From positions 1 to 22,705 of the IMG/VR virus record IMGVR_UViG_3300021594_000663: a stretch of DNA of 22,705 nt; one strand, 5' to 3'. Positions 684 to 22,205 of this stretch are shown here, one piece after another. The first letter of the stretch is position 1. Each line of letters starts with the position of its first letter. The notes below the pieces were generated by a model that was not told where the DNA came from, did no database searches, and saw only the letters and a list, made by a program, of their open reading frames with translations. The position numbers and the translations under genes were made by a program. Source of the stretch: a virus.

Positions 684-1412
684 ATGGCTGCTTCTAAATC
701 TATGGACTTTCCTGGTGCAAAAAAATCTAGTTATGCTGCACAGGTAGAACAAAGCCAAGCCTCTCCATATCAAGAAAATGCTCTGTCATTTCTTCCAGTC
801 CCTGGGCCACAAGGACCACAAGGACCTGCAGGCAAAGATGGCAAAGATGGAAAAGAAGGACCTCAAGGACCAGTAGGAATTCCAGGACCAGCAGGGCAAA
901 CAGGAAAGACAGGCAAAGAAGGTTTAAGTTCTTTGTCTTCTTCAGGCCAGCAAGCAGGTTGGGCCTCATACCACAACAAAATAGAAAAACCTTTTAAACT
1001 TGGTATTTCTGAAGGAGAAGATGGTTGGGTCACAACATTTGTTTTATCTGAAGGTCTATCAAACGAAAAATATCTTCCAAAAGGATGCACTCCACTATGG
1101 AATGATCACGCCCGAGCATTTAGTTTTAGAGGACTTAAAGAAGGAGCCCAAGTATTCATAACGTATAGTTTTGAACTAACAACTTATAGCAGCAATACAG
1201 AGGCATGGATTAGAACCTATTCACCTAGTAGTGGTTTAGACATTGCCCAATTTATAGGATCAATGAAATACCAGCATACATATCCAATAACTGTAACACA
1301 GCAGGTATTTATTGAAAACCAGCAAATTTGGGGTAACGGAGCAGTACCTCAAATTAGAACTGACTATGACGCATCAGTAATTCTCAAATCTATATATGTC
1401 AGCGTGGTATAA
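684..1412 (+). CDS. Collagen-like tail fibre protein
   Basis: The protein has 242 residues. Residues 1-40 form a short N-terminal part. Residues 41-79 hold 13 uninterrupted G-X-Y triplets (mostly GPQ, GPA, GKD, GKE, plus GPV and GIP), a collagen-like triple-helix segment. A globular beta-rich C-terminal domain (about 85-242) has many aromatic and Thr/Ser residues and may be a receptor-binding head. Collagen-like stalks that trimerise are common in phage fibres. In most triplets Pro is at the X position; only GIP has it at Y, the site used by animal prolyl 4-hydroxylase. Bacterial and viral enzymes differ in their preferences, so modification by the window's own oxygenases remains possible. 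The last codons GTG GTA TAA also build the next promoter. Confidence 0.85.
   Translation: MAASKSMDFPGAKKSSYAAQVEQSQASPYQENALSFLPVPGPQGPQGPAGKDGKDGKEGPQGPVGIPGPAGQTGKTGKEGLSSLSSSGQQAGWASYHNKIEKPFKLGISEGEDGWVTTFVLSEGLSNEKYLPKGCTPLWNDHARAFSFRGLKEGAQVFITYSFELTTYSSNTEAWIRTYSPSSGLDIAQFIGSMKYQHTYPITVTQQVFIENQQIWGNGAVPQIRTDYDASVILKSIYVSVV
804..920 (+). repeat. Collagen G-X-Y repeat, 13 triplets
   Basis: Thirteen consecutive Gly-X-Y codon triplets encode residues 41-79 of the collagen-like protein. Charged GKD/GKE triplets sit between two Pro-rich runs, a pattern often seen in stable bacterial collagen-like helices. Confidence 0.9.
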
Positions 1413-2655: not shown

Positions 2656-4122
2656 ATGGCTGATAACTATATTGATGAAACGGAAACTGGCACTGGGTTA
2701 TACTCAACCAGGGTTCCTGGCTATGAAGATGCAGCAGATATTCAGGAGGCTTTAAGACTTTATCATTATGGATCACTAAGTATCCCAACTGTTGATTCAC
2801 TTGGAACGGCAAATGGAATAAGTCCAAAATCTATAGCAGGGCACCTAAAAACCTTATCAAATACAGACATAGCCAATGCATTATTGGCAGCAAATGCTCT
2901 TGCACAAGAGATAACAGATAGAACAACTGCAGATACAGGTCTTCAAACACAGATAAATAACCTTTCAGCAACCATAGGGTTGCAAACCACTTTAACTACA
3001 AAAACTTCTAACTTTACCCTGGCTCTTTTGGATGCTGGAAAAACAATTTTACTTGATACTGCATCACCAATGACATTGACAGTCCCTACAAATTCATCAG
3101 TTGAAATACCTGTTGGATATCAGTATTTTGTTATAGAAGCAGGATCAGGAAGAACAACTTTTACACCAGCATCAGGTGTAACAATTAATAGCAAAAATTC
3201 ACAAATGTATATTGATAATCAATATGGTAGAGCAACGCTTTTAAAGGTTGGAACTGATTCATGGATTGCCTATGGAGATATTTCTGAAAATGCTGTCCCA
3301 GTGACACCACCAGTGACACCACCAGTGACACCACCAGTGACACCGCCAGTGACACCACCAGTGACACCACCAGTTACTCCACCGCCACCACCAGTGACAC
3401 CACCAGTTACTCCACCAGTAGTAGTGACACCACCTGTAACTCCACCAGTAGTAGTGACACCACCTGTAACACCACCAGTAACAACAGGAACAGCCTATCT
3501 CTCATACTGCTTTAATGGAACTCCTACACAAGAATCATTCCCCGTTAATTCTGAAAATGTAGTTGTACAAGATATTAACCAAGCAGTTGCTGCTTACACT
3601 TCACTTCTTCAAGGTTTAAATCCTCCAGCAACAAGCATTTCTGTTTCAATAAGTTCAATGCCAGCAGCACCAACTAACTGTCCAGCAGCACCAGTGACAC
3701 CACCAGTTACACCCCCAGTAGTTACTCCACCAGTAACACCCCCAGTAGTTACTCCACCAGTAACGCCACCAACAGGTGGATTCTTTGCTTCATTCTGTTC
3801 TAATGGAATTGCTATGTCAGATGGAGGACCTCAGTACTCATCTGCAGGAGCCATTCAAGCATGGGTAAATGGCAATTATCCTAATGTAAACAATCTTACT
3901 ACTCAAGAAGGGTCCGCACCAGCATTACCAAATTGTACACCAGCAGTTACTCCACCAGTTACTCCGCCTGTAACTCCACCAGTTACTCCACCACCACCAG
4001 TGACTCCACCAGTTACTCCACCACCACCAGTGACACCACCAGTTACTCCACCAGTAGTAGTGACACCACCTGTAACTCCACCTGTAACTCCCCAGCAGGC
4101 GGTTGTAATCCAGACACAGTAG
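2656..4122 (+). CDS. Long tail fibre with (VTPP)n linkers and Cys-bracketed modules
   Basis: The protein has 488 residues in this frame. Residues 1-70 look like a virion-attachment segment (Y-E-D-A-A-D-I-Q-E-A-L-R). A helical stretch follows (about 70-110). A beta domain at about 115-213 contains L-T-V-P-T-N and ends G-T-D-S-W-I-A-Y-G-D; it is clearly related to the C-terminal domain of the gene at 14054. From residue 216 three VTPP blocks alternate with two modules that share the layout TG-x4-S-[YF]-C-x-N-G ... P-x-N-C. Each module probably closes a disulfide. The frame ends VTPQQAVVIQTQ, but a -1 shift in the CCCC at 4090-4093 would give a Cys-rich end to 4166 (separate entry). The Thr-Pro-Pro linkers are candidate substrates for the oxygenases and GT61 enzymes nearby. 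Confidence 0.8.
   Translation: MADNYIDETETGTGLYSTRVPGYEDAADIQEALRLYHYGSLSIPTVDSLGTANGISPKSIAGHLKTLSNTDIANALLAANALAQEITDRTTADTGLQTQINNLSATIGLQTTLTTKTSNFTLALLDAGKTILLDTASPMTLTVPTNSSVEIPVGYQYFVIEAGSGRTTFTPASGVTINSKNSQMYIDNQYGRATLLKVGTDSWIAYGDISENAVPVTPPVTPPVTPPVTPPVTPPVTPPVTPPPPPVTPPVTPPVVVTPPVTPPVVVTPPVTPPVTTGTAYLSYCFNGTPTQESFPVNSENVVVQDINQAVAAYTSLLQGLNPPATSISVSISSMPAAPTNCPAAPVTPPVTPPVVTPPVTPPVVTPPVTPPTGGFFASFCSNGIAMSDGGPQYSSAGAIQAWVNGNYPNVNNLTTQEGSAPALPNCTPAVTPPVTPPVTPPVTPPPPVTPPVTPPPPVTPPVTPPVVVTPPVTPPVTPQQAVVIQTQ
3301..3480 (+). repeat. VTPP repeat block 1
   Basis: Sixty codons are built from GTG/GTA/GTT-ACN-CCA-CCA units (Val-Thr-Pro-Pro), with occasional PPPP and VVV variants. The 12-base units vary at third positions, so the repeat is conserved more at the protein than at the DNA level. 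Confidence 0.95.
3694..3771 (+). repeat. VTPP repeat block 2
   Basis: This second Val-Thr-Pro-Pro block of about 26 codons, with VVTPP variants, links Cys module 1 (about 3481-3690) to Cys module 2 (about 3772-3942). Confidence 0.9.
3946..4095 (+). repeat. VTPP repeat block 3
   Basis: A third block of Val-Thr-Pro-Pro units with PPPP interruptions runs up to the CCCC run at 4090-4093, where the frame appears to have shifted. Confidence 0.9.
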
Positions 4123-4633: not shown

Positions 4634-4816
4634 ATGTCAAAATGGGAAGAGTGGAAAAAGGCTCAAGGAGAAGCAAGGCCTTGGCATTTATTAGATCACA
4701 ACAAGTTGGTAGATGATGAATCTATATCTGATTCTAGACTAAGCATATGTAAAACATGTCCAGAGTTGATCAAACTTACAACAACATGTAAAAACTCTTT
4801 AATTGTGCAATTATGA
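4634..4816 (+). CDS. Small Cys-motif protein, possibly a truncated zinc-ribbon
   Basis: This 60-residue protein has a W-E-E-W-K-K-A-Q-G-E-A-R-P-W-H-L-L-D start and a C39-x2-C42-P-E-L-I-K-L-T-T-T-C52 motif. From general knowledge, small phage proteins of this kind usually have a second metal-binding part of the form CKKCGC after the TTxC. Here the frame goes CKNSLIVQL and stops, so the second half is missing. The -1 frame reads CKKLFNCAIM and continues in frame into the radical SAM gene. The gene overlaps that gene by ATGA, so they are co-translated. It could be a degraded zinc-ribbon, a partner protein or a substrate of the radical SAM enzyme. Confidence 0.6.
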   Translation: MSKWEEWKKAQGEARPWHLLDHNKLVDDESISDSRLSICKTCPELIKLTTTCKNSLIVQL

Positions 4817-5667
4817 TAAAAGATTGGTTTAAGAAGCAACTAGGCCTTATAGAGATAGAGGTATATTCTTACTGCAATAGGAAGTGCTGGTTTTGTCCTA
4901 ACTCTTTTATAGACAGACACTCTGATAACAATGTTATGCCAGAAGAAATGTATTTGTCTATACTTAATCAGTTATCAGAAATAGACTATGATAAAGAAAT
5001 TACGTACAGCAGATATAACGAGCCACTAGCCTATAGAGAGATAATACTAAAGCGTATTTCTCAAGCCAGAGAGATATTGCCAAAGGCCAAACTAAGAACC
5101 AATACCAATGGCGACTATGTTACACTTGACTATATTCATGCTCTTAGAAACGCAGGACTTAATGAGTTGTTTATTCAACAATACCTGGCAAATAATGAGC
5201 AATACAATCATGCCAAGATGAAGAAACGTATGCTTGAAAAGATCAAAGGTTTTGGTGTTGAGTACACAGTTATTTCTGATGTAGAAAATCACAGAATAGA
5301 ATATGACCTAGCAATAGATGGAATAGTTGTACACCTAAGAGCAAGAAACTTTGCTGTAGAGGGAACTGCTAGAACTGAAAAGGTTGCGGGATTTAACGAA
5401 GAATATGTAAGAACTAAGGCATGCACACAGCCATTTAAAAACATGTACATAGACTACAATGGTAGCGTAATGGTGTGTTGCAATACAAGATCAGATGTGC
5501 CTGAGCATAATAATGGAATTATGGCTCATGTAAACGACGCTCCTTTGTGGGAAATCTACAGAAATGAAAAATATAAGCCTTGGAGAGACCACCTTGAGAA
5601 AGATGGCCCTAAGTCTGGTATTTGCAAGGGTTGTAAAATTGATATTAACTTTAAGGAAATGATTTAG
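4813..5667 (+). CDS. Radical SAM enzyme with SPASM-like C-terminus
   Basis: This 284-residue protein has the radical SAM cluster motif C21-N-R-K-C25-W-F-C28, which binds the [4Fe-4S] cluster that cleaves S-adenosylmethionine. Y-N-E-P at 68-71 takes the place of the usual GGEP segment. A C-terminal set of cysteines (C204, C222-C223, C271-x2-C274), around C-T-Q-P-F and D-Y-N-G-S-V-M-V-C-C-N, fits a SPASM/twitch domain holding auxiliary clusters. SPASM enzymes usually modify peptides or proteins, or act on sugars and cofactors. The start overlaps the upstream stop by ATGA. Candidate substrates nearby are the 60-residue Cys protein or the Cys-rich fibres, but nothing in the sequence proves this. 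Confidence 0.85.
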   Translation: MIKDWFKKQLGLIEIEVYSYCNRKCWFCPNSFIDRHSDNNVMPEEMYLSILNQLSEIDYDKEITYSRYNEPLAYREIILKRISQAREILPKAKLRTNTNGDYVTLDYIHALRNAGLNELFIQQYLANNEQYNHAKMKKRMLEKIKGFGVEYTVISDVENHRIEYDLAIDGIVVHLRARNFAVEGTARTEKVAGFNEEYVRTKACTQPFKNMYIDYNGSVMVCCNTRSDVPEHNNGIMAHVNDAPLWEIYRNEKYKPWRDHLEKDGPKSGICKGCKIDINFKEMI

Positions 5668-8309: not shown

Positions 8310-8873
8310 GTGTTTAATGCAAAGGTTGCAAAAAATTTTATTTCTAAAGATGATTGTAAATATTTAGTAAACATTGCAACATCTTATGATTTATGGGAAG
8401 GCGGAGGATCAAGTTTCTGGGAAGGAAGAGTTGTAAACTATCAATCAATTTTAAAGTTTGATAAAAAAGCAGGAAAAATTATGCTAGATGCAAATAATGC
8501 TTGTGGAAAACTAATTAAAGAAAATTATAATCTAAGTTTGCCAGTTTATTCTGATACCCTTCAAGTAATTAGATGGTTTCCAGGAATGGAACAGCCACCG
8601 CATGCAGACGACATGAGTAATACTGAGCACCATGGATTTGAGCACAGAGCCTTTGGATCAATAATTTATTTAAATGATGATTATAGTGGTGGTCATACAT
8701 TTTATCCAAATTTTGATATAGAGGTAATTCCAGAAACTGGTTCTCTTGCAATTCATCCAGGGGACCCAGAACATCTTCACGGAGTAAGAAAAATAGAAGA
8801 CAGCATGAGGTACACAATTGCATCCTTCTGGACTTTTGATAAGGAGAAAAGCCATGAATGGCCAGTACCTTAA
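8310..8873 (+). CDS. Prolyl-4-hydroxylase-like 2OG-Fe(II) oxygenase 1
   Basis: The 187-residue protein has a GTG start one base after the cupin stop. The jelly-roll iron site is complete: H98-A-D100, then H157 in L-H-G-V-R, and R167 (M-R-Y) for the 2-oxoglutarate carboxylate. I-I-Y-L-N-D-D-Y-S-G-G (118-128) is the family's typical strand. Enzymes of this type (P4Hc domain) hydroxylate prolyl or other side chains using O2 and 2-oxoglutarate. Length matches stand-alone bacterial and viral P4Hs. The last 20 bases overlap the next gene, whose Shine-Dalgarno lies inside this one. Proposed substrates are the Pro-rich fibres of this phage. Confidence 0.9.
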   Translation: MFNAKVAKNFISKDDCKYLVNIATSYDLWEGGGSSFWEGRVVNYQSILKFDKKAGKIMLDANNACGKLIKENYNLSLPVYSDTLQVIRWFPGMEQPPHADDMSNTEHHGFEHRAFGSIIYLNDDYSGGHTFYPNFDIEVIPETGSLAIHPGDPEHLHGVRKIEDSMRYTIASFWTFDKEKSHEWPVP

Positions 8874-9606
8874 TAATCCTGGATACGAAGTTCCAGACAA
8901 TACAATTTTAATTGTCCCCCACCGTCTTGAAGATGATGGGTTTTATAAAGAAGTTATTTTGCCACTAAAAGGAGAGAGCAAAAGAGATTGGTTTACACCC
9001 CACTTCTATTACTGTCTTCCTTTAAATATTGGAAATCAGTATGGATTTTTAATACAGTCTTTAAGAGATTTTGAAATTATTTGGGATGGATCACCAGCAG
9101 ACCCAGTGATAACCTTTTTAAACTCAGATAATGAAAACAAGCAGTTTATAACTGGAGGTTTTGGAAGTGGAATTGTTACGGTTCAAAATTGTTTTGCTAT
9201 AAAAACTCCAATAGGAACAAATGTTATGACTATTCAGCCACCCAATATGTTTATTCCTGGATGTATTTCTATGGCTGCTGTTATTGAAACAGACAACATA
9301 AAGAGAGACTTTACTTTTAATATTAAAATGACAGTTCCAAACTTAAAGGTAACTGTAAAAAAGGGAGACCCCTTGGGAGCCTTTATACCAATTCAAAGAC
9401 ATTATGTAGATGAGTTTGATGTGAAACTTATTAGTGAGTTTTTCTCAAAAGAGGTTCATGAAAATGAAATAAATGAACAACTTGCTCTAAGCATTGAAAG
9501 AACTACTGTCGACAAAGAAAAGCCTCATGAATCTGGAAGGCGATACTTTAAAGGCATAAACACCGATGGTACCGCCTATCCAGATCATCAAAAAAAACTT
9601 ACTTAG
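8854..9606 (+). CDS. DUF6065-like protein 1
   Basis: The 250-residue protein starts at ATG 8854, set by AAGGAG at 8841-8846, rather than the in-frame ATG at 8818. Recognisable segments are F-Y-Y-C-L-P-L-N-I-G-N-Q-Y-G-F, I-I-W-D-G, P-P-N-M-F-I-P-G-C-I, and K-K-G-D-P-L-G-A-F-I-P-I-Q-R-H. The same skeleton (C/F-P-L/V-N-I-x-N-x-x-G-W/F, WDG, a P-N-x-F-I-x-G turn, an I-P-A/KGD-P step) recurs in the gene at 18544 and more weakly at 19251. I match it, with moderate confidence, to DUF6065. The function of that family is not known to me. In both loci here it follows an oxygenase directly, which suggests a shared pathway. Confidence 0.6.
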   Translation: MNGQYLNNPGYEVPDNTILIVPHRLEDDGFYKEVILPLKGESKRDWFTPHFYYCLPLNIGNQYGFLIQSLRDFEIIWDGSPADPVITFLNSDNENKQFITGGFGSGIVTVQNCFAIKTPIGTNVMTIQPPNMFIPGCISMAAVIETDNIKRDFTFNIKMTVPNLKVTVKKGDPLGAFIPIQRHYVDEFDVKLISEFFSKEVHENEINEQLALSIERTTVDKEKPHESGRRYFKGINTDGTAYPDHQKKLT

Positions 9607-14053: not shown

Positions 14054-16162
14054 ATGGCAACAAGAATGCAACAGCGCAGAGGAACTGCAGCACAATGGAC
14101 GGCTGCAAACCCAATTCTAGCAGCAGGTGAAATCGGTTTTGAAACCGACACAAATAAATTTAAGATTGGTAACGGAGCAACTGCTTGGACAGCATTGGAT
14201 TACTTTGCTAACTCTTCAGCACTAACAGCGCTTCTTACAGGAGCACCTGGAACATTAGATACTCTTAATGAACTAGCAGCAGCAATCAACGATGATCCAA
14301 ACTTCTTCTCAAGCGTTGCAGATCAGATCGCAGATGCAATTGCAGGTGCCGAAGATAATTATCCAGCCCTTGCTGGAGCAGGAATAGAATGGAATGCAGG
14401 AACTAACGCATTCGATATAGACTCAACAGTTGCCACAACTAGTTATGCAGACAATGCTGTAACTGTCCACAACCAGGATTCTACTGGTGTTCATGGAATT
14501 ACTGACACAGCAGCACTTGTAACACTATCAGGAACACAGCAACTAGCAAATAAGACATTGCTGAGCCCACTTATTAGTACTCCTACTGGCTTGACAAAAG
14601 CAGATGTTGGTCTTGAAAACGTAGACAACGTTTCAGATTCACTAAAGCCAGTTTCAACTGCTACCCAAACAGCACTTGACCTTAAGGCACCAGTTAACAA
14701 CCCAACCTTCACAGGAACAGTAGCAGGCATTACAAAGGGTATGGTAGGACTTGGACAGGTAGACAATATTTCAGATGAAAACAAGCCAATTTCAACCCTT
14801 ACTCAGGCAGCCCTTGATGCAAAGGCTCCACTAGCAAACCCTCAGTTTACAGGTGTTGTTTACGGTGTTACAAAAGCAATGGTTGGGTTAGATCTAGCAA
14901 ACAATACAGCAGATCTAGACAAGCCAGTTTCAAATGCTACACAAGTGGCACTAGATAACAAACTTGCACTATCTGGAGGAACTCTTGTTGGATATTTGAC
15001 AACACACGCAAACCCTTCAGACTCACTTCACGTAGCAAATAAGCGCTATGTCGATGCAATTGCAACAGGGCTACATATTCACGCAGCAGTAGTTGCAGCA
15101 ACTAGTGCAAATATTAATCTCTCAACAGCAGTTGCAAATGGAAGCACTCTTGATGGTGTAACTTTGGCAACTGGAGATAGAATCCTTATAAAGAATCAGA
15201 CAACTGCTTCTGAAAATGGTATCTATATTGTTGCAGCAACTGGAGCACCAACTAGAGCATCAGACTTCGACACACATGAAGAAATTCATGGTGGAGACTT
15301 CGTGTTCGTAAAGGGTGGAACCGTTTATGACAATACTGGATGGGTACAGACAGCAACAGTTAATACTGTTGGAACAGACCCTATAGAATTCACTCAGTTC
15401 TCAGGTGCAGGAACATTCCTTGCAGGTAATGGACTTACACTGACTGGATCAACATTCTCTGCTGATCTTGGAGTACTTGCTCCAAAAAATAGCCCAACAT
15501 TCACAGGAACAGTTTCTGGAGTTACAAAGGCTATGGTCGGATTGCAAAACGTTGATAATACATCCGATGAAGGAAAGCCAGTTTCAACTGCTACACAAAC
15601 AGCGCTTGACCTAAAGGCTAACCTAAATGCTCCAACATTTACTGGAACAGTTTCTGGTATTACTAAGTCAATGGTTGGTCTTGGAAATGTTGATAACACA
15701 ACAGATGCAGGAAAGCCAGTTTCTACTGCAACTCAGACAGCACTTGACCTAAAGGCTCCAATTGCAGATCCAACATTTACTGGAACAGTAACAGTTGGTG
15801 CACCTGGAGTAGCATTTTCAGACGGTACACAGACAAAGGAAGGTGTTCCATCTAGAACAACAATTATCCAGAGAACAGACTCCTATACACTGGCTGCACT
15901 GACAGAAAGAGATTCTTTAATAGAGATCAACAAGTCATCAGCAGCAACTTTGACAATTCCAACCAATGCAACAGTTGCATGGCCAATTGGAACATCAATT
16001 GATATCCTTCAAACTGGAACAGGACAGGTAACAATTGCTGGAGCAGCAGGAGTAACTGTCAATGCAACACCAGGATTAAAACTACGCACTCAGTGGTCAT
16101 CTGCCTCTCTTCTTAAGCGAGGAACTGATTCATGGGTAGTTGTAGGCGACCTAACAGCATAA
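14054..16162 (+). CDS. Tail fibre with Mtd-type N-terminal domain and VDN repeats
   Basis: This 702-residue protein is the largest in the window. Residues about 5-50 (Q-Q-R-R-G-T-A-A-Q-W, A-G-E-I-G-F-E-T-D-T, F-K-I-G-N-G) match the N-terminal domain of major tropism determinant proteins, a virion-attachment module. The shaft has five copies of a unit of about 46 residues built on T-K-x-M-V-G-L-x-N-V-D-N, K-P-V-S-T-A-T-Q and P-T-F-T-G-T-V; three lie before and two after an inserted domain (about 335-465; D-R-I-L-I-K-N-Q-T-x-A-S-E-N-G-I-Y). The last 100 residues (L-T-I-P-T-N ... R-G-T-D-S-W-V-V-V-G-D) are homologous to the domain before the VTPP linkers of the 2656 protein. AAGGAG at 14038-14043 fixes the start. 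Confidence 0.85.
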   Translation: MATRMQQRRGTAAQWTAANPILAAGEIGFETDTNKFKIGNGATAWTALDYFANSSALTALLTGAPGTLDTLNELAAAINDDPNFFSSVADQIADAIAGAEDNYPALAGAGIEWNAGTNAFDIDSTVATTSYADNAVTVHNQDSTGVHGITDTAALVTLSGTQQLANKTLLSPLISTPTGLTKADVGLENVDNVSDSLKPVSTATQTALDLKAPVNNPTFTGTVAGITKGMVGLGQVDNISDENKPISTLTQAALDAKAPLANPQFTGVVYGVTKAMVGLDLANNTADLDKPVSNATQVALDNKLALSGGTLVGYLTTHANPSDSLHVANKRYVDAIATGLHIHAAVVAATSANINLSTAVANGSTLDGVTLATGDRILIKNQTTASENGIYIVAATGAPTRASDFDTHEEIHGGDFVFVKGGTVYDNTGWVQTATVNTVGTDPIEFTQFSGAGTFLAGNGLTLTGSTFSADLGVLAPKNSPTFTGTVSGVTKAMVGLQNVDNTSDEGKPVSTATQTALDLKANLNAPTFTGTVSGITKSMVGLGNVDNTTDAGKPVSTATQTALDLKAPIADPTFTGTVTVGAPGVAFSDGTQTKEGVPSRTTIIQRTDSYTLAALTERDSLIEINKSSAATLTIPTNATVAWPIGTSIDILQTGTGQVTIAGAAGVTVNATPGLKLRTQWSSASLLKRGTDSWVVVGDLTA
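14575..14990 (+). repeat. VDN-type fibre repeats 1-3
   Basis: Three tandem copies, about 46 residues each, carry T-K-x-x-V-G-L-x-x-V-D-N and K-P-[VI]-S-T cores in the 14054 protein. The third copy is diverged (A-N-N-T-A-D) and leads into the inserted domain. Boundaries are approximate. Confidence 0.75.
15475..15800 (+). repeat. VDN-type fibre repeats 4-5
   Basis: Two further copies of the same unit lie after the inserted domain and are more alike in DNA than the first three, which suggests recent duplication. Boundaries are approximate. Confidence 0.75.
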
Positions 16163-16193: not shown

Positions 16194-17054
16194 ATGGCAA
16201 AGAAAGAAATAGGTACGAAGTCTCAACAGCAGAACGACTTCTTAGAACCAAAAGCACCAACTAACGTAGTAGCAACAGATGTTGGAACAGGTAGAGCGTT
16301 CTCAAGCGCAGCAGCAACTGTTTCATTTTCTTTGCCAGCAGATTCTCCAGCAGCAACATCATATACAGTAACTTCTTCACCAGGAGGGCTTACTGGTACT
16401 GGTGCAGGATCACCTATAACAGTTGCAGCATTAACCCCTGCTACATCTTACACATTTACAGTAACAGCAACTAATGCATCAGGAACATCTCTTGCATCAT
16501 CAGCATCATCTGCAATTACAGTAACAACTGTTCCAAATGCTGTATCTGTTATTTCAGCAACAACTGCTGTTAACCAAGATACAGTTAGTTGGACTGCACC
16601 ATCAACAGGTGGAAAAGCAATTATTGATTATGCTTGGTCATCATCTGATGGAAAATCTGGAACAACAGCATCAACATCTGTTAATGTCGCACAAGAAGGA
16701 AACACCGCTCAGACATATACTGTTACAGCAAGAAATGCAAATGGATCTTCTCTTGTATCTGCACCATCAAACAGTGTTACAACTACACCACCATTCTTCC
16801 CACCATCGTTCCCATTTTTCCCACCAGCATTTTGTCCATTCTTCCCATCATTCTGTCCATTCTTCCCGAACTTCTGTCCATCATTCTGTCCATTCTTCCC
16901 GAACTTCTGTCCATCATTCTGTCCATTCTTCCCGAACTTCTGTCCAGCATTTTGTCCAGCATTTTGTCCAGCATTCTGTCCAGCATTCTGTCCAGCATTC
17001 TGTCCATCATTCGCTCCATTCTTCCCATCATTCACAATACCAGGAGCAGTATAA
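16194..17054 (+). CDS. Fibronectin III-like protein with a Phe-Cys-Pro repeat tail
   Basis: The protein has 286 residues. Residues about 20-112 and 113-197 are two fibronectin type III/Ig-like domains (first: P-T-N-V-V-A-T ... T-P-A-T-S-Y-T-F-T-V-T-A-T-N; second ends Y-T-V-T-A-R-N-A-N-G). Such domains are common add-ons in phage tail proteins and bind carbohydrate or host surface weakly. Residues 199-280 are a nearly pure F/C/P tail: AFCP, SFCPFFP and NFCP units with 12 Cys. I know no close analogue. Possible roles are a disulfide-welded tip, a metal-binding element, a membrane-active segment, or a substrate for the radical SAM enzyme or oxygenases. GGAGAAA (16182-16188) precedes the ATG. It is the last gene before the second oxygenase cluster. 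Confidence 0.8.
   Translation: MAKKEIGTKSQQQNDFLEPKAPTNVVATDVGTGRAFSSAAATVSFSLPADSPAATSYTVTSSPGGLTGTGAGSPITVAALTPATSYTFTVTATNASGTSLASSASSAITVTTVPNAVSVISATTAVNQDTVSWTAPSTGGKAIIDYAWSSSDGKSGTTASTSVNVAQEGNTAQTYTVTARNANGSSLVSAPSNSVTTTPPFFPPSFPFFPPAFCPFFPSFCPFFPNFCPSFCPFFPNFCPSFCPFFPNFCPAFCPAFCPAFCPAFCPAFCPSFAPFFPSFTIPGAV
16788..17033 (+). repeat. Tandem (xFCP)n repeat
   Basis: Two DNA units are seen. A 33-base unit coding for FCPFFPNFCPS occurs about three times. A 12-base unit (TTC TGT CCA GCA) occurs in tandem about five times. Because unit lengths are multiples of three, the other frames also stay open, which produces spurious long ORFs on both strands here. Confidence 0.9.
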
Positions 17055-17110: not shown

Positions 17111-17806
17111 ATGGAAAAAAGATATGAATGGTATGACGCCCCAAGACTAGAAAAAACACAAACTAGACTTGAAAAGCGTACAATTGTAAATAATATTGAA
17201 GTTTTAAATTTAGAGTATGGCATTAATGTATACAGAAATGCTATACCTAAAGATCAGTGCTTAAGCATAATAGACAGACTTGAAAGTGCTTCAGAAAAGA
17301 ACTCTCCCAACCTTTCTTGGAGAGGGGCACAGATCAATGACAAAGAAGATTCTGACCATGTTAGAAATTGCTTAGATATTAAATATAAAAGAGAACATCT
17401 TGGAAAATTCTTGCCATTTGATCAAGACATGTTCGATATACACAAAGAGGTAGAAGATTGTTTAGATAACTGCTTAAGAGATTACGAATCCTTGTGGCAC
17501 TTCCAGATGGCGTACAAAGAAGCATTTAACTTTGTAAAGTATTTACCTGGAAAATATTTTAAACTTCATGGAGATCATGGCCCATATTACACATGCACAG
17601 TATCTGCTGTTGTTTATTTAAATGATGATTATACTGGAGGAGAGATCGAGTTTCCAAGACAAGGCATTAAGATAAAGCCAGAAGCAGGAGACATCATTGT
17701 TTTCCCATCAAACTTTGTTTATGAGCATGCCTCTTGTGAAATTTTTGAGGGAACAAAGTACTCAGTAGTAATAATGACAGACTATAACGACTTACACCAT
17801 AAGTAA
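17111..17806 (+). CDS. Prolyl-4-hydroxylase-like 2OG-Fe(II) oxygenase 2
   Basis: The 231-residue protein has its iron ligands at H153-G-D155 and H206 (Y-E-H-A-S). K216 (T-K-Y-S-V-V) takes the place of the usual 2-oxoglutarate-binding Arg, as in classical prolyl 4-hydroxylases. The strand V-V-Y-L-N-D-D-Y-T-G-G-E-I-E-F lies between, and P-E-A-G-D precedes the second His strand. The N-terminal 110 residues (Y-R-N-A-I-P-K-D-Q-C start) are the usual variable lid region. It is a tandem paralogue of the next gene, with which it shares F-V-K-Y and H-x-D-H-G. Confidence 0.9.
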   Translation: MEKRYEWYDAPRLEKTQTRLEKRTIVNNIEVLNLEYGINVYRNAIPKDQCLSIIDRLESASEKNSPNLSWRGAQINDKEDSDHVRNCLDIKYKREHLGKFLPFDQDMFDIHKEVEDCLDNCLRDYESLWHFQMAYKEAFNFVKYLPGKYFKLHGDHGPYYTCTVSAVVYLNDDYTGGEIEFPRQGIKIKPEAGDIIVFPSNFVYEHASCEIFEGTKYSVVIMTDYNDLHHK

Positions 17807-17843: not shown

Positions 17844-18542
17844 ATGGATAAAGCAGTTAACACAAGTTCTGATGAAACAAAGGACTATGAAACACCAACA
17901 TGGTCTTCATTTGAGAATTTAGGAAGCGGAATTTTTGTTTATAGAGATGTTCTTCCAAAAGAACTAGAAATAATCAAAAGGCTTGAAGACAACCTTAGTG
18001 AAGATCATCCTAGGTATAAATGGATGGAAGCCTTTGTTGGATACTTTCAGAGCATGCCAGAATATAGAGATTGTCAAGACTTCAAGTTTAAGAAATCAGA
18101 TATTGCATTAGACACAAGCGAGCAATCATTAAACCTTCAGGCATTATGGCAAGACTGCTATGATAGACAAAAGCCAGCAGTAAACCATTACCAAAAAATG
18201 TTTAATCTTGGAGAACTAAGATATTGGGAAGCAATGAACTTTGTTAAATATAATAGAGGTCAGCATTTCCAGTATCACCATGACCATGGATTTTCTTATA
18301 ACTGTACAGTATCTTTAGTTGCTTATCCAAATGATGACTACGAGGGTGGAGAATTATCTTTCCAGCACCAAGGGTTAACTATAAGTCCAAAGGCTGGAGA
18401 TCTATATATTTTCCCATCAACATACATGTATAGTCACAGAGCAATGCCAGTCCATTCTGGAACAAAGTATTCTGTTGTTACAATGTTAGACTATAGTGCA
18501 AAGTTTCATACACCAGAAATGTATAGAGAAACTGGCGACTAG
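17844..18542 (+). CDS. Prolyl-4-hydroxylase-like 2OG-Fe(II) oxygenase 3
   Basis: The 232-residue protein has H145-H-D147-H-G, a second iron His in M-Y-S-H-R-A (about 197), and a Lys in T-K-Y-S-V-V (about 207) for 2-oxoglutarate. L-V-A-Y-P-N-D-D-Y-E-G-G-E-L-S-F is the core strand, with Pro in place of the usual Leu before N-D-D. It is more similar to the 17111 protein than to the other four oxygenases, so the pair arose by tandem duplication. Its stop is followed one base later by the TTG start of a DUF6065-like gene, the same order as in the 8310/8854 pair. Confidence 0.9.
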   Translation: MDKAVNTSSDETKDYETPTWSSFENLGSGIFVYRDVLPKELEIIKRLEDNLSEDHPRYKWMEAFVGYFQSMPEYRDCQDFKFKKSDIALDTSEQSLNLQALWQDCYDRQKPAVNHYQKMFNLGELRYWEAMNFVKYNRGQHFQYHHDHGFSYNCTVSLVAYPNDDYEGGELSFQHQGLTISPKAGDLYIFPSTYMYSHRAMPVHSGTKYSVVTMLDYSAKFHTPEMYRETGD

Positions 18543-18543
18543 T

Positions 18544-19251
18544 TTGAAGATTGACGTTTATAGAAAAAGAGATTTTGATTCAGACTTCTATCCTTTGCCA
18601 CCAAAAAGAGACTGGATGGATGATACATTTGATAAGCATGCATACAGATGTTTTCCAGTAAATATTGCAAACACATTAGGATGGACGTTCTCTTTTCCAA
18701 AAGACATATCTTTTATCTGGGACGGAATCTCAACTTCAGAAGATGGACATGTTAAGGTCCTTTCTGGAGAGGAGTATGTTTTTACTAACAGAGCAAATGC
18801 AACAATAAGTTTTAATAGTGGTTTAACTTTTATGACAGAGGAAAATGTTAGTTTGTTGATGATGCCTGTTCCAAATCAATTTATTGATGGTGTGCATGGC
18901 TTTACAACAATGATAAGCACTTCTGTTTTAACAACCCCAATTCCTTATGCTTGGAAAATAACAAAGGCAAATGAAGTAATAACTATTCCAGCAAATACTC
19001 CTATTGTTTCAATAATTCCAATAAATTTAACAGATATTCAGAACACTGAAGTTAATCTTTATATAGAAAATTTTCCATATGAGCATTTTAAAAAGATCTC
19101 TGATTATGCAAATGCTTCTCATGAAATATCTAAAAAACAGTCCTGGACAAATTTCTACAGAGATGCGGTAGACCATGAAGGAAACCAACAGGGTAATCAT
19201 GAACTAAAGAGTTTAAGATTAAGGGTAATAGATCATAGAGATGGCAATTAG
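18544..19251 (+). CDS. DUF6065-like protein 2
   Basis: The 235-residue protein begins at TTG 18544, just after the upstream TAG. An in-frame ATG at 18496 would force a 47-base overlap with a non-homologous N-terminus. Key segments are R-D-W-M-D-D, Y-R-C-F-P-V-N-I-A-N-T-L-G-W, F-I-W-D-G, P-N-Q-F-I-D-G, and I-P-A-N-T-P-I-V-S-I-I-P-I. These fit DUF6065 best among the three related proteins. The fold appears all-beta with a short helical C-terminus. It has no obvious catalytic residues and no signal peptide. The stop shares its G with the GTG start of the next gene (TAGTG). Confidence 0.65.
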   Translation: MKIDVYRKRDFDSDFYPLPPKRDWMDDTFDKHAYRCFPVNIANTLGWTFSFPKDISFIWDGISTSEDGHVKVLSGEEYVFTNRANATISFNSGLTFMTEENVSLLMMPVPNQFIDGVHGFTTMISTSVLTTPIPYAWKITKANEVITIPANTPIVSIIPINLTDIQNTEVNLYIENFPYEHFKKISDYANASHEISKKQSWTNFYRDAVDHEGNQQGNHELKSLRLRVIDHRDGN

Positions 19252-20003: not shown

Positions 20004-20678
20004 ATGAATAACTCTGAATACTCAAACAGCCAAGTTTCTAATAGGTTTTCAATAACTCCTTCTGGGTATTTTGGAAAAGATAAAATAAATATACAATCTA
20101 GAGAAAACTTTATTAGTTTAGAAGATCTAACTTTTTTGTCAGATGCTGCAAAAAATATAAGCATTTGGGATGTAACAGAAAGTCACTATGATGACGATGG
20201 TGTTATGATCTATGATTCATCCTATTGGGAAAACAGGGTTGCAACATCAAGGACTTTAAACCTTAATGATGAAAAAATTAATCCAGTTATTGAAAAACTT
20301 CAAGAAAGCCTTAAAAACGAAGTAGACTTATTCTTTAATGTTGATGCATGGCCAACAAGTCCAGCAATAGTTAGATGGCTTCCTGGACAGTTTCAACAAC
20401 CGCATGCAGACAAAGAGTTGCATGAAGGAGAAAATGCAGGAAAGCCAAATGACTTCCCATATTATGATATAGCAGGACTGTTTTATTTAAACGATGACTA
20501 CGAAGGCGGAGAGTTGTATTTCCCAAACCAAGGAATACAGTTTAAGCCTAAAGCAGGATCAGCATATTTTTTTCCAGGAGATTTAAACTATATACACGGA
20601 GTAACTCAGATCACAGAAGGAACAAGATATGTTGTTCCATTTTTCTTTACTATTTTGTCTCATAAGGAGGGCCAATAA
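20004..20678 (+). CDS. Prolyl-4-hydroxylase-like 2OG-Fe(II) oxygenase 4
   Basis: The 224-residue protein has H134-A-D136, H198 (Y-I-H-G-V) and R208 (T-R-Y-V-V). The core strand is L-F-Y-L-N-D-D-Y-E-G-G-E-L-Y-F-P. R-W-L-P-G-Q-F-Q-Q-P-H-A-D is close to R-W-F-P-G-M-E-Q-P-P-H-A-D of the 8310 protein, so these two form one subgroup, with Arg for 2-oxoglutarate, distinct from the 17111/17844 Lys subgroup. AAGGAGG near its end (20664-20670) serves the next gene, whose ATG overlaps its stop (TAATG). Confidence 0.9.
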   Translation: MNNSEYSNSQVSNRFSITPSGYFGKDKINIQSRENFISLEDLTFLSDAAKNISIWDVTESHYDDDGVMIYDSSYWENRVATSRTLNLNDEKINPVIEKLQESLKNEVDLFFNVDAWPTSPAIVRWLPGQFQQPHADKELHEGENAGKPNDFPYYDIAGLFYLNDDYEGGELYFPNQGIQFKPKAGSAYFFPGDLNYIHGVTQITEGTRYVVPFFFTILSHKEGQ

Positions 20679-21484
20679 TGCCAGAAGACACAGTTTTAAA
20701 TTTTAATAAAATAGATAATAGAATTTTTGTTTACAAAAATCCATTTAATGATTTAGAAAAAATAGTCTCATCGCTTGCTGATAGAAAGTGGGATCAGTGG
20801 TATACTTTTGGAGATATTCATCATATACCTCTTCCTGGTAGTGTTGAGTCAGACCTTTTCCCAGACATTGCTGAGTGGGAGTCTTACACTAACAAGATTA
20901 AAGATAAAGACAAAGATTTAGATATAGTCAATGTTTTTTATAATACCACCAAGCACTACATTGAAGAGACAGGCCTTACTTCAAATAACTGGATGCTTGG
21001 GAAGATAGATATAGCAAAGTATCCTGATGCAAAGAGCATATCTGATCCAAATGCAAAACCATTTTTTAATGAAATCGGGAAAAACTATACAATGTCCTTC
21101 CATACCGACTATCCACAAGAAAGCACAAACTCTCCAGGAGCAAAACAAATAGTTACCTGCAACATGTACCTAAATGATAATTATGATGGAGGAGAGATAG
21201 AGTTTAAGGTCTTTTCAGAAGACGGATCTTATGAGAGAATAACCTACAAGCCAGAGGCAGGAGATGTTGTCATATTCCCATCTACTCCCCCATATTGGCA
21301 TGGAGTAAGAGAAACAACAAATGGCGATAAATATTTTGTTAGATCATTTTGGTATGTAATTGACGGGCCATCAGAAGAGTGGCTTGAAAATGAAAAGAAA
21401 TATGGTAAAGAAGTCTGGCACGAGATGGAAGAAACAAGAAAGCAAGAAGAAAGAATTTCTGGGTTGTACATAAGAAATGGTTAA
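20678..21484 (+). CDS. Prolyl-4-hydroxylase-like 2OG-Fe(II) oxygenase 5
   Basis: At 268 residues this is the longest oxygenase of the set. Iron ligands are H142-T-D144 and H208 (Y-W-H-G-V); K218 (D-K-Y-F-V-R) probably holds 2-oxoglutarate. The core strand reads M-Y-L-N-D-N-Y-D-G-G-E-I-E-F and is followed by a short insert (F-S-E-D-G-S-Y) before K-P-E-A-G-D. The C-terminal 35 residues are charged and helical (E-E-W-L-E-N-E-K-K), absent from the smaller paralogues. It overlaps the next gene by 8 bases. Confidence 0.9.
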   Translation: MPEDTVLNFNKIDNRIFVYKNPFNDLEKIVSSLADRKWDQWYTFGDIHHIPLPGSVESDLFPDIAEWESYTNKIKDKDKDLDIVNVFYNTTKHYIEETGLTSNNWMLGKIDIAKYPDAKSISDPNAKPFFNEIGKNYTMSFHTDYPQESTNSPGAKQIVTCNMYLNDNYDGGEIEFKVFSEDGSYERITYKPEAGDVVIFPSTPPYWHGVRETTNGDKYFVRSFWYVIDGPSEEWLENEKKYGKEVWHEMEETRKQEERISGLYIRNG

Positions 21485-22205
21485 CAAATCAAACTTTAAT
21501 TACTTAAAAGATGAAAAAAATAACAAAGGTGTTTTGGGAATAACCCATAACCGTATTGTAGAAATTCCTAATTTTATTGATCAAAAAACAGCAGATAATA
21601 TGATTGCCTATGTTGAGTCAAAGGGAGAGAACTGGGGAGACATAGCATTCTATGGTTCACTAGGAATGGGTCTGGCTTCAAATGACCCAGGACTTGCTGA
21701 ACATGGATTAAGCCTTACATTTTTTGATGACCTTAGAGATAAATTTAAAGAGTGTGTCGAGTTAGTTTTTGAAAGAAAGGTAAGACCAAACACATCTCAT
21801 GCCCAAAAGTGGGATGTCGGAGGATATGCTTCACCACATTCTGACAACTCTGATTTTGATGGAAATCCTAATGCTTTTGAAATAAACAAGTATGTTGGAA
21901 TTTTATATTTAAATGATAACTATGAAGGCGGTGAGTTATTTTTCGTTGAGCCATCAGACAAGGAATCAGTGGGATCTAAGCCAAATGCTTATTCTTATTA
22001 TGTGTTTCCAGGAGGAGTAGAAAATATTCATGGAGTAACCGAAATACTTGCTGGCACAAGGTATACGATGGTTTCTTTTTGGGACTACGAGGAAATAGAA
22101 TATAGCCAAGAAACCATTGATAAATGGAACGAAGAAGAAAAAGAAATTAGAAGATTGCAGTCTATTCAAAAAGAAGAATGGACAAAAGGAAATAAATACG
22201 CATAA
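21477..22205 (+). CDS. Prolyl-4-hydroxylase-like 2OG-Fe(II) oxygenase 6
   Basis: The 242-residue protein has H121-S-D123, H185 (N-I-H-G-V) and R195 (T-R-Y-T-M). The core strand is I-L-Y-L-N-D-N-Y-E-G-G-E-L-F-F. The N-terminal lid contains G-M-G-L-A-S-N-D-P-G, not found in the others. A charged helical C-terminus (about 205-242) resembles that of the previous gene, so both may pack against the same partner. The start ATG lies inside the upstream gene, 8 bases before its end; expression is probably by coupling. Confidence 0.9.
   Translation: MVNKSNFNYLKDEKNNKGVLGITHNRIVEIPNFIDQKTADNMIAYVESKGENWGDIAFYGSLGMGLASNDPGLAEHGLSLTFFDDLRDKFKECVELVFERKVRPNTSHAQKWDVGGYASPHSDNSDFDGNPNAFEINKYVGILYLNDNYEGGELFFVEPSDKESVGSKPNAYSYYVFPGGVENIHGVTEILAGTRYTMVSFWDYEEIEYSQETIDKWNEEEKEIRRLQSIQKEEWTKGNKYA

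Follow-up and report, generated by a model that had tools for sequence, protein, structure and literature searches.

What does a phage gain from a structural protein that ends in a long tandem run of phenylalanine, proline and cysteine? The question is raised by one gene in a viral DNA stretch of 22,705 nucleotides (the whole stretch analysed, hereafter the window). The initial annotation had read its product as a fibronectin-like phage fibre protein with a cysteine-bearing repeat tail of a kind it could not match elsewhere. The features on which the first part of the argument draws are as follows.

14054..16162, plus strand: upstream long tail fibre with an Mtd_N domain and repeats (PF18454, 2.2e-15; PHROG tail fiber and minor tail families)
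16194..17054, plus strand: complete gene for a putative FnIII-FnIII-(xFzP)n fibre-tip protein of 286 aa (open frame; Pfam fn3, E=2.9e-7; >545 viral-contig relatives; codon-level constraint)
16194..16247, plus strand: N-terminal segment, aa 1-18 (MAKKEIGTKSQQQNDFLE), with the conserved motif KxxGxKSQxxNDFLEP, a possible virion anchor (42-row alignment)
16248..16784, plus strand: two FnIII/Ig-like β-sandwich domains, aa 19-197 (AlphaFold2, Foldseek)
16788..17033, plus strand: repeat tail, aa 199-280, of 4-mer xFCP and 3-mer FFP units with 12 Cys (composition, Tandem Repeats Finder, Cys spacing)
16914..16946, plus strand: single 33-bp (11-aa, 2-Cys) repeat unit, present in the window and missing from contig L108
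17070..17103, plus strand: hairpin of terminator type that separates the fibre gene from an oxygenase cluster (15-pair stem, then TTATTTT; consensus match only)

The fibre gene and its repeat tail

In an AlphaFold2 monomer model built from 42 sequences, residues 21-195 form two confident β-sandwich domains, mostly with pLDDT >90, and the tail is without predicted structure (pLDDT 40-59). Foldseek matches these domains to the tandem FnIII of titin, LAR and NEO1 and also to proteins of uncultured phages that are entered as 'Fibronectin type III'. The latter, from uncultured Caudovirales phages (UniProt A0A6J5NYB8, A0A6J5MFV5 and others; BFVD), share the tandem fold at 45-53% identity and probably belong to the same family as the window protein, although they are annotated by the FnIII domain alone and are compared here over that fold. 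Ahead of the FnIII pair, K4, G7, S10, N14, D15 and P19 are near-invariant in the 42-row alignment. In fold and family searches alike, the protein matches FnIII proteins of the minor-tail type. The gene closes a cluster of tail-fibre genes whose upstream members match tail-fibre PHROGs and Mtd_N, a setting that, together with the FnIII pair, agrees with the fibre-type assignment made at the outset. Known phage minor tail and fibre proteins with FnIII/Ig-like domains are similar in carrying such domains on structural proteins from tail-fibre clusters, but their descriptions include neither an aromatic-Pro-Cys arm nor an adjoining hydroxylase cluster.

The phage itself, a freshwater one, is probably an actinophage, since a ribonucleotide reductase fragment in the window shares 67% identity with its counterpart in Actinomycetia phage DSL-LC01 and whiB genes occur in its relatives, both on a 112-kb contig whose version of the fibre protein is 90% identical and on 6 of 23 other related contigs. 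Matches in cellular genomes are at the FnIII level only, with the exception of L112, a probably viral contig of 3 kb within a Chitinophagaceae MAG.

The tail corresponds to codons 199-280 of the frame and begins PPFFPPSFPFFPPAFCPFFPSFCPFFPNFCP... (F29, P25, C12, A7, S6, N3). Phe, Pro and Cys account for 66 of its 82 residues, the remainder being Ala, Ser or Asn at the x position, and the description of it as almost only Phe, Pro and Cys was thus slightly overstated, although the coordinates were exact and the count of 12 cysteines was right. These lie at residues 214, 221, 228, 232, 239, 243, 250, 254, 258, 262, 266 and 270, in steps of 7, 7, 4, 7, 4, 7, 4, 4, 4, 4 and 4, which bears out the regular spacing of 4 or 7 that had been proposed. 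No Cys precedes residue 199 of the 286-aa protein, so that all 12 are confined to the tail; the C-terminus reads ...FTIPGAV. The tripeptide FCP occurs 12 times in the real frame and at most once per open frame in 60 shuffles of the window. Open frames on the antisense strand and in the +1 frame also cross the repeat, merely because the length of the unit is a multiple of 3.

Tandem Repeats Finder resolves 16837-17033 into 4.5 copies of a 33-bp unit plus 12-bp units, as expected from the recent tandem expansion that had been suspected. An assembly artefact, which had been named as a possible refutation, is ruled out: independent contigs L001-L004, from other samples, encode the tail with 12, 12, 12 and 10 Cys, and their codons differ synonymously with Phe, Pro and Cys invariant. 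Protein identity to the window is 93% for L002, 90% for L003 and 89% for L004, all with a tail of like kind. Contig L083 differs from the window by four substitutions over 11.8 kb. Over 5,331 bp, L108 is identical save for exactly one absent 33-bp unit (window 16914-16946), and repeat number therefore varies in frame, as had been predicted for differing strains. Frame-breaking indels, likewise named as a refutation, are rare in relatives: in the one case, L072, the tail is collapsed and frame-shifted and the N-terminal domains are identical to those of L070, which may reflect a real slip or a mis-assembly.

Recent tandem copies and the in-frame loss of a copy are also what would be seen if the tail were a largely neutral low-complexity product of slippage, with its aromatic and Cys content incidental. 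We regard this as very improbable. Where the tail has F, P or z (z being mostly Cys), comparison with L002 and L003 gives 9 synonymous and 0 nonsynonymous differences, and at the x positions 4 nonsynonymous differences; the FnIII part shows 18 nonsynonymous and 29 synonymous codons against L002. Across the family, moreover, unrelated codon solutions (FYN, GAF, SFVPY) keep the aromatic periodicity.

Aromatic-repeat tails in related viruses

More than 545 viral loci encode relatives of the window FnIII protein. The repeat tails of this family sit on proteins of freshwater phages, the hosts probably being actinobacteria. Their tandem aromatic tails include PFFPPFFPFFP, SFFAPPGFFAPP, FSPFGVFGFSPFG, GAFGAF, FYNFYN and SFVPY, and hundreds of relatives from metagenomic viruses fall into classes that we name FFP, FFAPP, FSPFG, GAF and FYN. 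The window protein, with tandem aromatic units of 3 to 6 residues after an FnIII pair, fits this pattern. FFP-class tails are built from xFzP or xFP units. Of 1,846 such units, 1,485 have F at x, 167 have Y and 100 have S; at z, 1,162 have P, 87 have C and 41 have G, and 548 have no residue. Across the family the z position is Pro, Cys, Gly, Ala or absent. The FCP tail is therefore the variant of a large aromatic-repeat family with Cys at z. On the FnIII tree the FCP label requires at least two changes of state, counting starred branches only.

The suggested search of viral metagenomes for the (xFCP)n pattern returned 31 matches, many of them chance frames without a real gene; the substantial FCP ORFs all carry the FnIII pair except L256, which carries a Hint domain. 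The statement that no similar phage tail protein is known holds for annotated phages, in that tblastn of the window protein against 50,697 annotated phage records gave no match and a phage search with a Hint-bearing relative gave none either. It also holds for the open-access papers searched, in which we found no description of PFFPPFFP or such tails (an earlier account elsewhere is possible), and it fails for metagenomic viruses, where relatives number in the hundreds. The family thus appears to be undescribed.

The FFP tail is found on other N-terminal domains as well. In L190, L204, L221, L236, L254, L261 and L263, FFPP or YFPP tails follow another small N-terminal domain that looks PASTA-like by eye (VPNIVG...); Pfam searches with two of these domains gave no match. 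In the tails of L411, L412, L413 and L431, FSFVPFGF gives way to long stretches of (VP)n or (PVPV)n, and these loci are without an oxygenase cluster.

What follows the repeats also differs. Of 53 FFP tails, 19 have a short Cys-rich cap and 11 a long C-terminal domain; some tails end bare, and Peptidase_S74 is a rare ending. The long domains are Hint/bacterial-intein-like, a profile of 12 matching PDB 2LWY at 6.5e-8; they begin with Cys and often finish in His-Asn. The profile search revealed this relationship; a Foldseek search with a Hint-bearing relative, dominated by FnIII, did not show the Hint domain. Such C-termini on aromatic-repeat phage proteins are seen at L018:5805-6290, L057:4299-4760 and L062:5805-6365, among others, and in L069, L014, L021 and L064 both Cys1 and the terminal His-Asn are lost. 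It is possible that Hint ends serve self-cleavage or ligation of the fibre tip and that degenerate forms are retained. Bacterial intein-like (BIL)/Hint domains thus cap some relatives but are absent from the window protein.

Among the Cys-rich caps, a conserved 8-Cys form, GC.GC.RSYCWQACP.CCG..CGC, follows FFP repeats in L009:2970-3980, L012, L193, L237, L259 and L267, and other relatives have several further unrelated Cys-rich caps. The window protein lacks a C-terminal Peptidase_S74 domain. This chaperone, which trimerises fibres in known phages, occurs immediately after FFPP repeats in L232:1082-1771 (minus strand; E=3.7e-11), and short YSSERFKHSI-type ends in L247, L250 and L059 resemble the start of that domain. 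With S74 in only 1 of 19 whole related contigs, it is a minority ending.

Hydrophobicity and cysteine chemistry of the arm

The hydrophobicity of the tail had been taken to suggest contact with a membrane or lipid, and a tail rich in Phe with a GRAVY of 0.84 (1.5 in GAF tails) could in principle insert into, or partition onto, the host membrane at adsorption or entry. We think this improbable. The FYN tails of the same family are hydrophilic (GRAVY -1.05), and with values spanning 1.5 to -1.05 membrane insertion is not a family-wide property; Pro at every third or fourth residue precludes a transmembrane helix, and the C-terminal caps and Hint domains would need to cross the membrane or sit at it. 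The property that the tails share is regularly spaced aromatic residues, not hydrophobicity.

Because the cysteines are evenly spaced and occur nowhere outside the tail, the simplest guess at their role is inter-chain disulfides, formed after lysis. A fixed set of intramolecular bonds is disfavoured because tail Cys counts differ among relatives (12, 12, 10, 10, 8, 7 and 6), one of them being odd. No glutaredoxin that could act as a redox partner was found in FCP contigs.

Two other chemistries, both raised by the initial annotation, have to be weighed. First, the tail could form a metal-stacked trimeric needle in which Cys (here) or His (in HFPP tails) on the three-fold axis binds Fe or Zn. 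The tip of T4 gp37, a receptor-binding needle, binds metal through His in His-X-His; regularly spaced metal-ligand side chains are possible in both proteins, although the ligand here would be Cys and there is no sequence relation. The fixed z position of the Cys, the HFPP units of L203 and L231 and the S74 chaperone in one relative are in keeping with such a needle, but z is mostly Pro in the family and metal therefore cannot be general in it; we consider a needle of this kind improbable. Second, thioether (sactipeptide-like) cross-links could be made by the radical-SAM/SPASM enzyme that the window does encode, at 4813-5667. That gene, however, lies 11 kb from the fibre gene, adjoining glycosyltransferases and a different Pro-rich protein. 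A SPASM match is found in 1 of 19 related contigs, the near-identical one, so that the gene is not conserved with the Cys protein, and the 112-kb contig, which encodes the 90%-identical 12-Cys protein, lacks it. The chance that thioethers are formed seems to us slight.

Window 2656-4122 encodes a tail protein with long (PPVT)n repeats. Behind it follow the radical-SAM/SPASM gene, a pair of GT61 glycosyltransferases and genes for a cupin-like protein, a 2OG oxygenase and a DUF6065 protein. This neighbourhood is possibly a second fibre-modification cluster. DUF6065 proteins occur twice in the window, at 18496-19251 and 8818-9606 (3.4e-30 and 5.1e-34), each adjoining 2OG oxygenases.

Downstream oxygenases and a proposed adhesive arm

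Beyond the hairpin, the fibre gene is followed by a cluster of genes for 2OG-Fe(II) oxygenases, enzymes of the prolyl/lysyl-hydroxylase superfamily.

17111..17806, plus strand: 2OG-Fe(II) oxygenase, candidate tail-modifying hydroxylase (PF13640, 1.7e-11; HxD..H..K; nearest solved relatives prolyl 4-hydroxylases, weak)
17844..18542, plus strand: 2OG-Fe(II) oxygenase, candidate tail-modifying hydroxylase (PF13640, 7.5e-14; HxD..H..K; closest solved structures those of prolyl and procollagen lysyl hydroxylases, weak at E 6e-4 to 2e-3)
20004..20678, plus strand: 2OG-Fe(II) oxygenase, same cluster (PF13640, 5.5e-10; HxD..H..R)
20678..21484, plus strand: 2OG-Fe(II) oxygenase, same cluster (PF13640, 1.4e-13; HxD..H..K)
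21477..22205, plus strand: 2OG-Fe(II) oxygenase, same cluster (PF13640, 4e-8; HxD..H..R)

All six oxygenases of the window keep the catalytic HxD..H..R/K, and five of them sit downstream of the fibre gene, which gives the adjacent, active-site-intact 2OG-Fe(II) genes by which a hydroxylase-modified fibre would be recognised. In the last of the five, an in-frame stretch of 51 bp (17 aa) near ~21977 that is present in L083 and L108 is deleted in the window.

This arrangement is not peculiar to the window. On 24 whole contigs, 78 of 106 PF13640 matches fall within 8 kb downstream of an FnIII-tail gene on the same strand, against a mean of 12.5 and a maximum of 38 in 5,000 trials of random placement. 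When 127 distinct loci were compared by tail type, counting oxygenases within 4.5 kb downstream, at least two were found behind 58 of 60 FnIII tails of the FFP, FFAPP or FCP types as against 4 of 67 other tails, one of these four being the frame-shifted L072. The mean number of oxygenase genes in that interval is 3.4 for FFP/FFAPP/FCP, 0.41 for FSPFG and none for GAF, FYN and VPVP. Two sister rows illustrate the difference, L444 (FFP-type) having 4 oxygenases and L437 (FSPFG) 0. None of 55 loci scored has an upstream oxygenase. VPVP tails are Pro-rich and without the cluster, so that Pro content alone does not predict it. The link between oxygenases and tail type is strong as a count but unproven as an evolutionary correlation: only 3-5 phylogenetically independent contrasts are available on the tree, none contradictory but too few for significance, and synteny or co-transfer could therefore explain part of it.

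Hydroxylation of the tail by this cluster is the reading that we prefer, unproven as it is. Collagen with its prolyl and lysyl hydroxylases (in animals, and with the P4H of Bacillus anthracis and of PBCV-1, and in mimivirus) offers a parallel as a Pro-rich repeat fibre served by 2OG-Fe(II) enzymes. It differs in having a Gly-X-Y repeat; the window tail has no Gly in residues 199-280 and is for this reason not classed as collagen, and its hydroxylation is only proposed here. A collagen-like Gly-X-Y segment does occur on a tail-fibre-type protein elsewhere in the window (684-1412; PF01391, 1.9e-7) and is another candidate substrate.

It could instead be that the protein is an adhesive fibre tip but that the oxygenases act elsewhere, on other fibres, glycans, DNA or small molecules, their position merely marking a lineage that has both. 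We judge this unlikely on balance. Published work interprets the 2OG-Fe(II) enzymes of cyanophages as serving DNA repair or 2-oxoglutarate/nitrogen metabolism (PMC3037559; similar text in PMC10611076), independent contrasts are few, and the collagen-like and PPVT-repeat proteins of the window could be the substrates. The link is also weaker for FFP tails on other N-terminal domains, of which only 3 of 18 have at least two adjacent oxygenases. On the other side, relatives at the same locus with GAF, FYN, VPVP or FSPFG tails are usually without the cluster, and the oxygenases are never upstream in the loci scored.

Taken together, these observations lead us to favour, tentatively and with somewhat less than even confidence, an adhesive fibre tip whose prolines are hydroxylated by the adjacent oxygenases and whose cysteines, in the FCP form, cross-link or bind metal. 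On this reading a freshwater actinophage would use the product as a short adhesive fibre or as the tip of a fibre, attached to the virion probably through the conserved N-terminal segment, with the two FnIII domains as a stalk. The distal low-complexity xFzP arm, in which z is Cys in this branch, would carry Phe side chains at short intervals along a backbone rich in proline; it most likely folds only as a multimer and would bind the host envelope by many weak aromatic contacts. After lysis, the arm cysteines would form inter-chain disulfides or bind metal. The downstream oxygenases would hydroxylate prolines of the arm (or other residues), as P4H does on collagen, and arm length could be tuned through slippage of the 33- and 12-bp units. 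Of this model, the domain architecture, the conservation, the varying repeat number and the association with oxygenase genes are observed; virion location, adhesion, hydroxylation, cross-linking and multimer formation are inferred.

That the gene product is a host adhesin seems likely, and this fits a study of Planktophila phages in which collagen-like and fibre genes lie in a variable island thought to be related to host recognition (PMC10202952). As an adhesive, the proposed arm bears an analogy to a known system without being homologous to it. Mussel foot proteins likewise combine aromatic, Pro-rich tandem repeats and hydroxylated residues with Cys-rich partners, but they are based on Tyr/DOPA and the arm is based on Phe.

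In summary, the tails represent a large class of low-complexity proteins, presumably virion-borne, that the label 'fibronectin type III' has concealed. The 2OG-Fe(II) oxygenases of phages are abundant and lack an explanation, and they are frequently placed among auxiliary metabolic or DNA-repair genes; that they lie so regularly behind a single kind of fibre tail supplies a specific, testable candidate substrate. Going further, we raise as a doubtful but conceivable generalisation that freshwater actinophages carry widespread, undescribed adhesive fibres whose aromatic-Pro repeat arms are hydroxylated after translation by prolyl-hydroxylase-like clusters of the phage and bear exchangeable tips (Cys-rich caps, Hint domains that process themselves, S74 chaperones), cross-linked here by a regular Cys ladder, as a viral counterpart of hydroxylated adhesive and collagen-type matrices. 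The Cys form offers a direct test case for cross-linking of the arm outside the cell, and, if the proposal is true, a length-tunable polymer of Phe, Pro and Cys would add a new type to the known biological adhesives.
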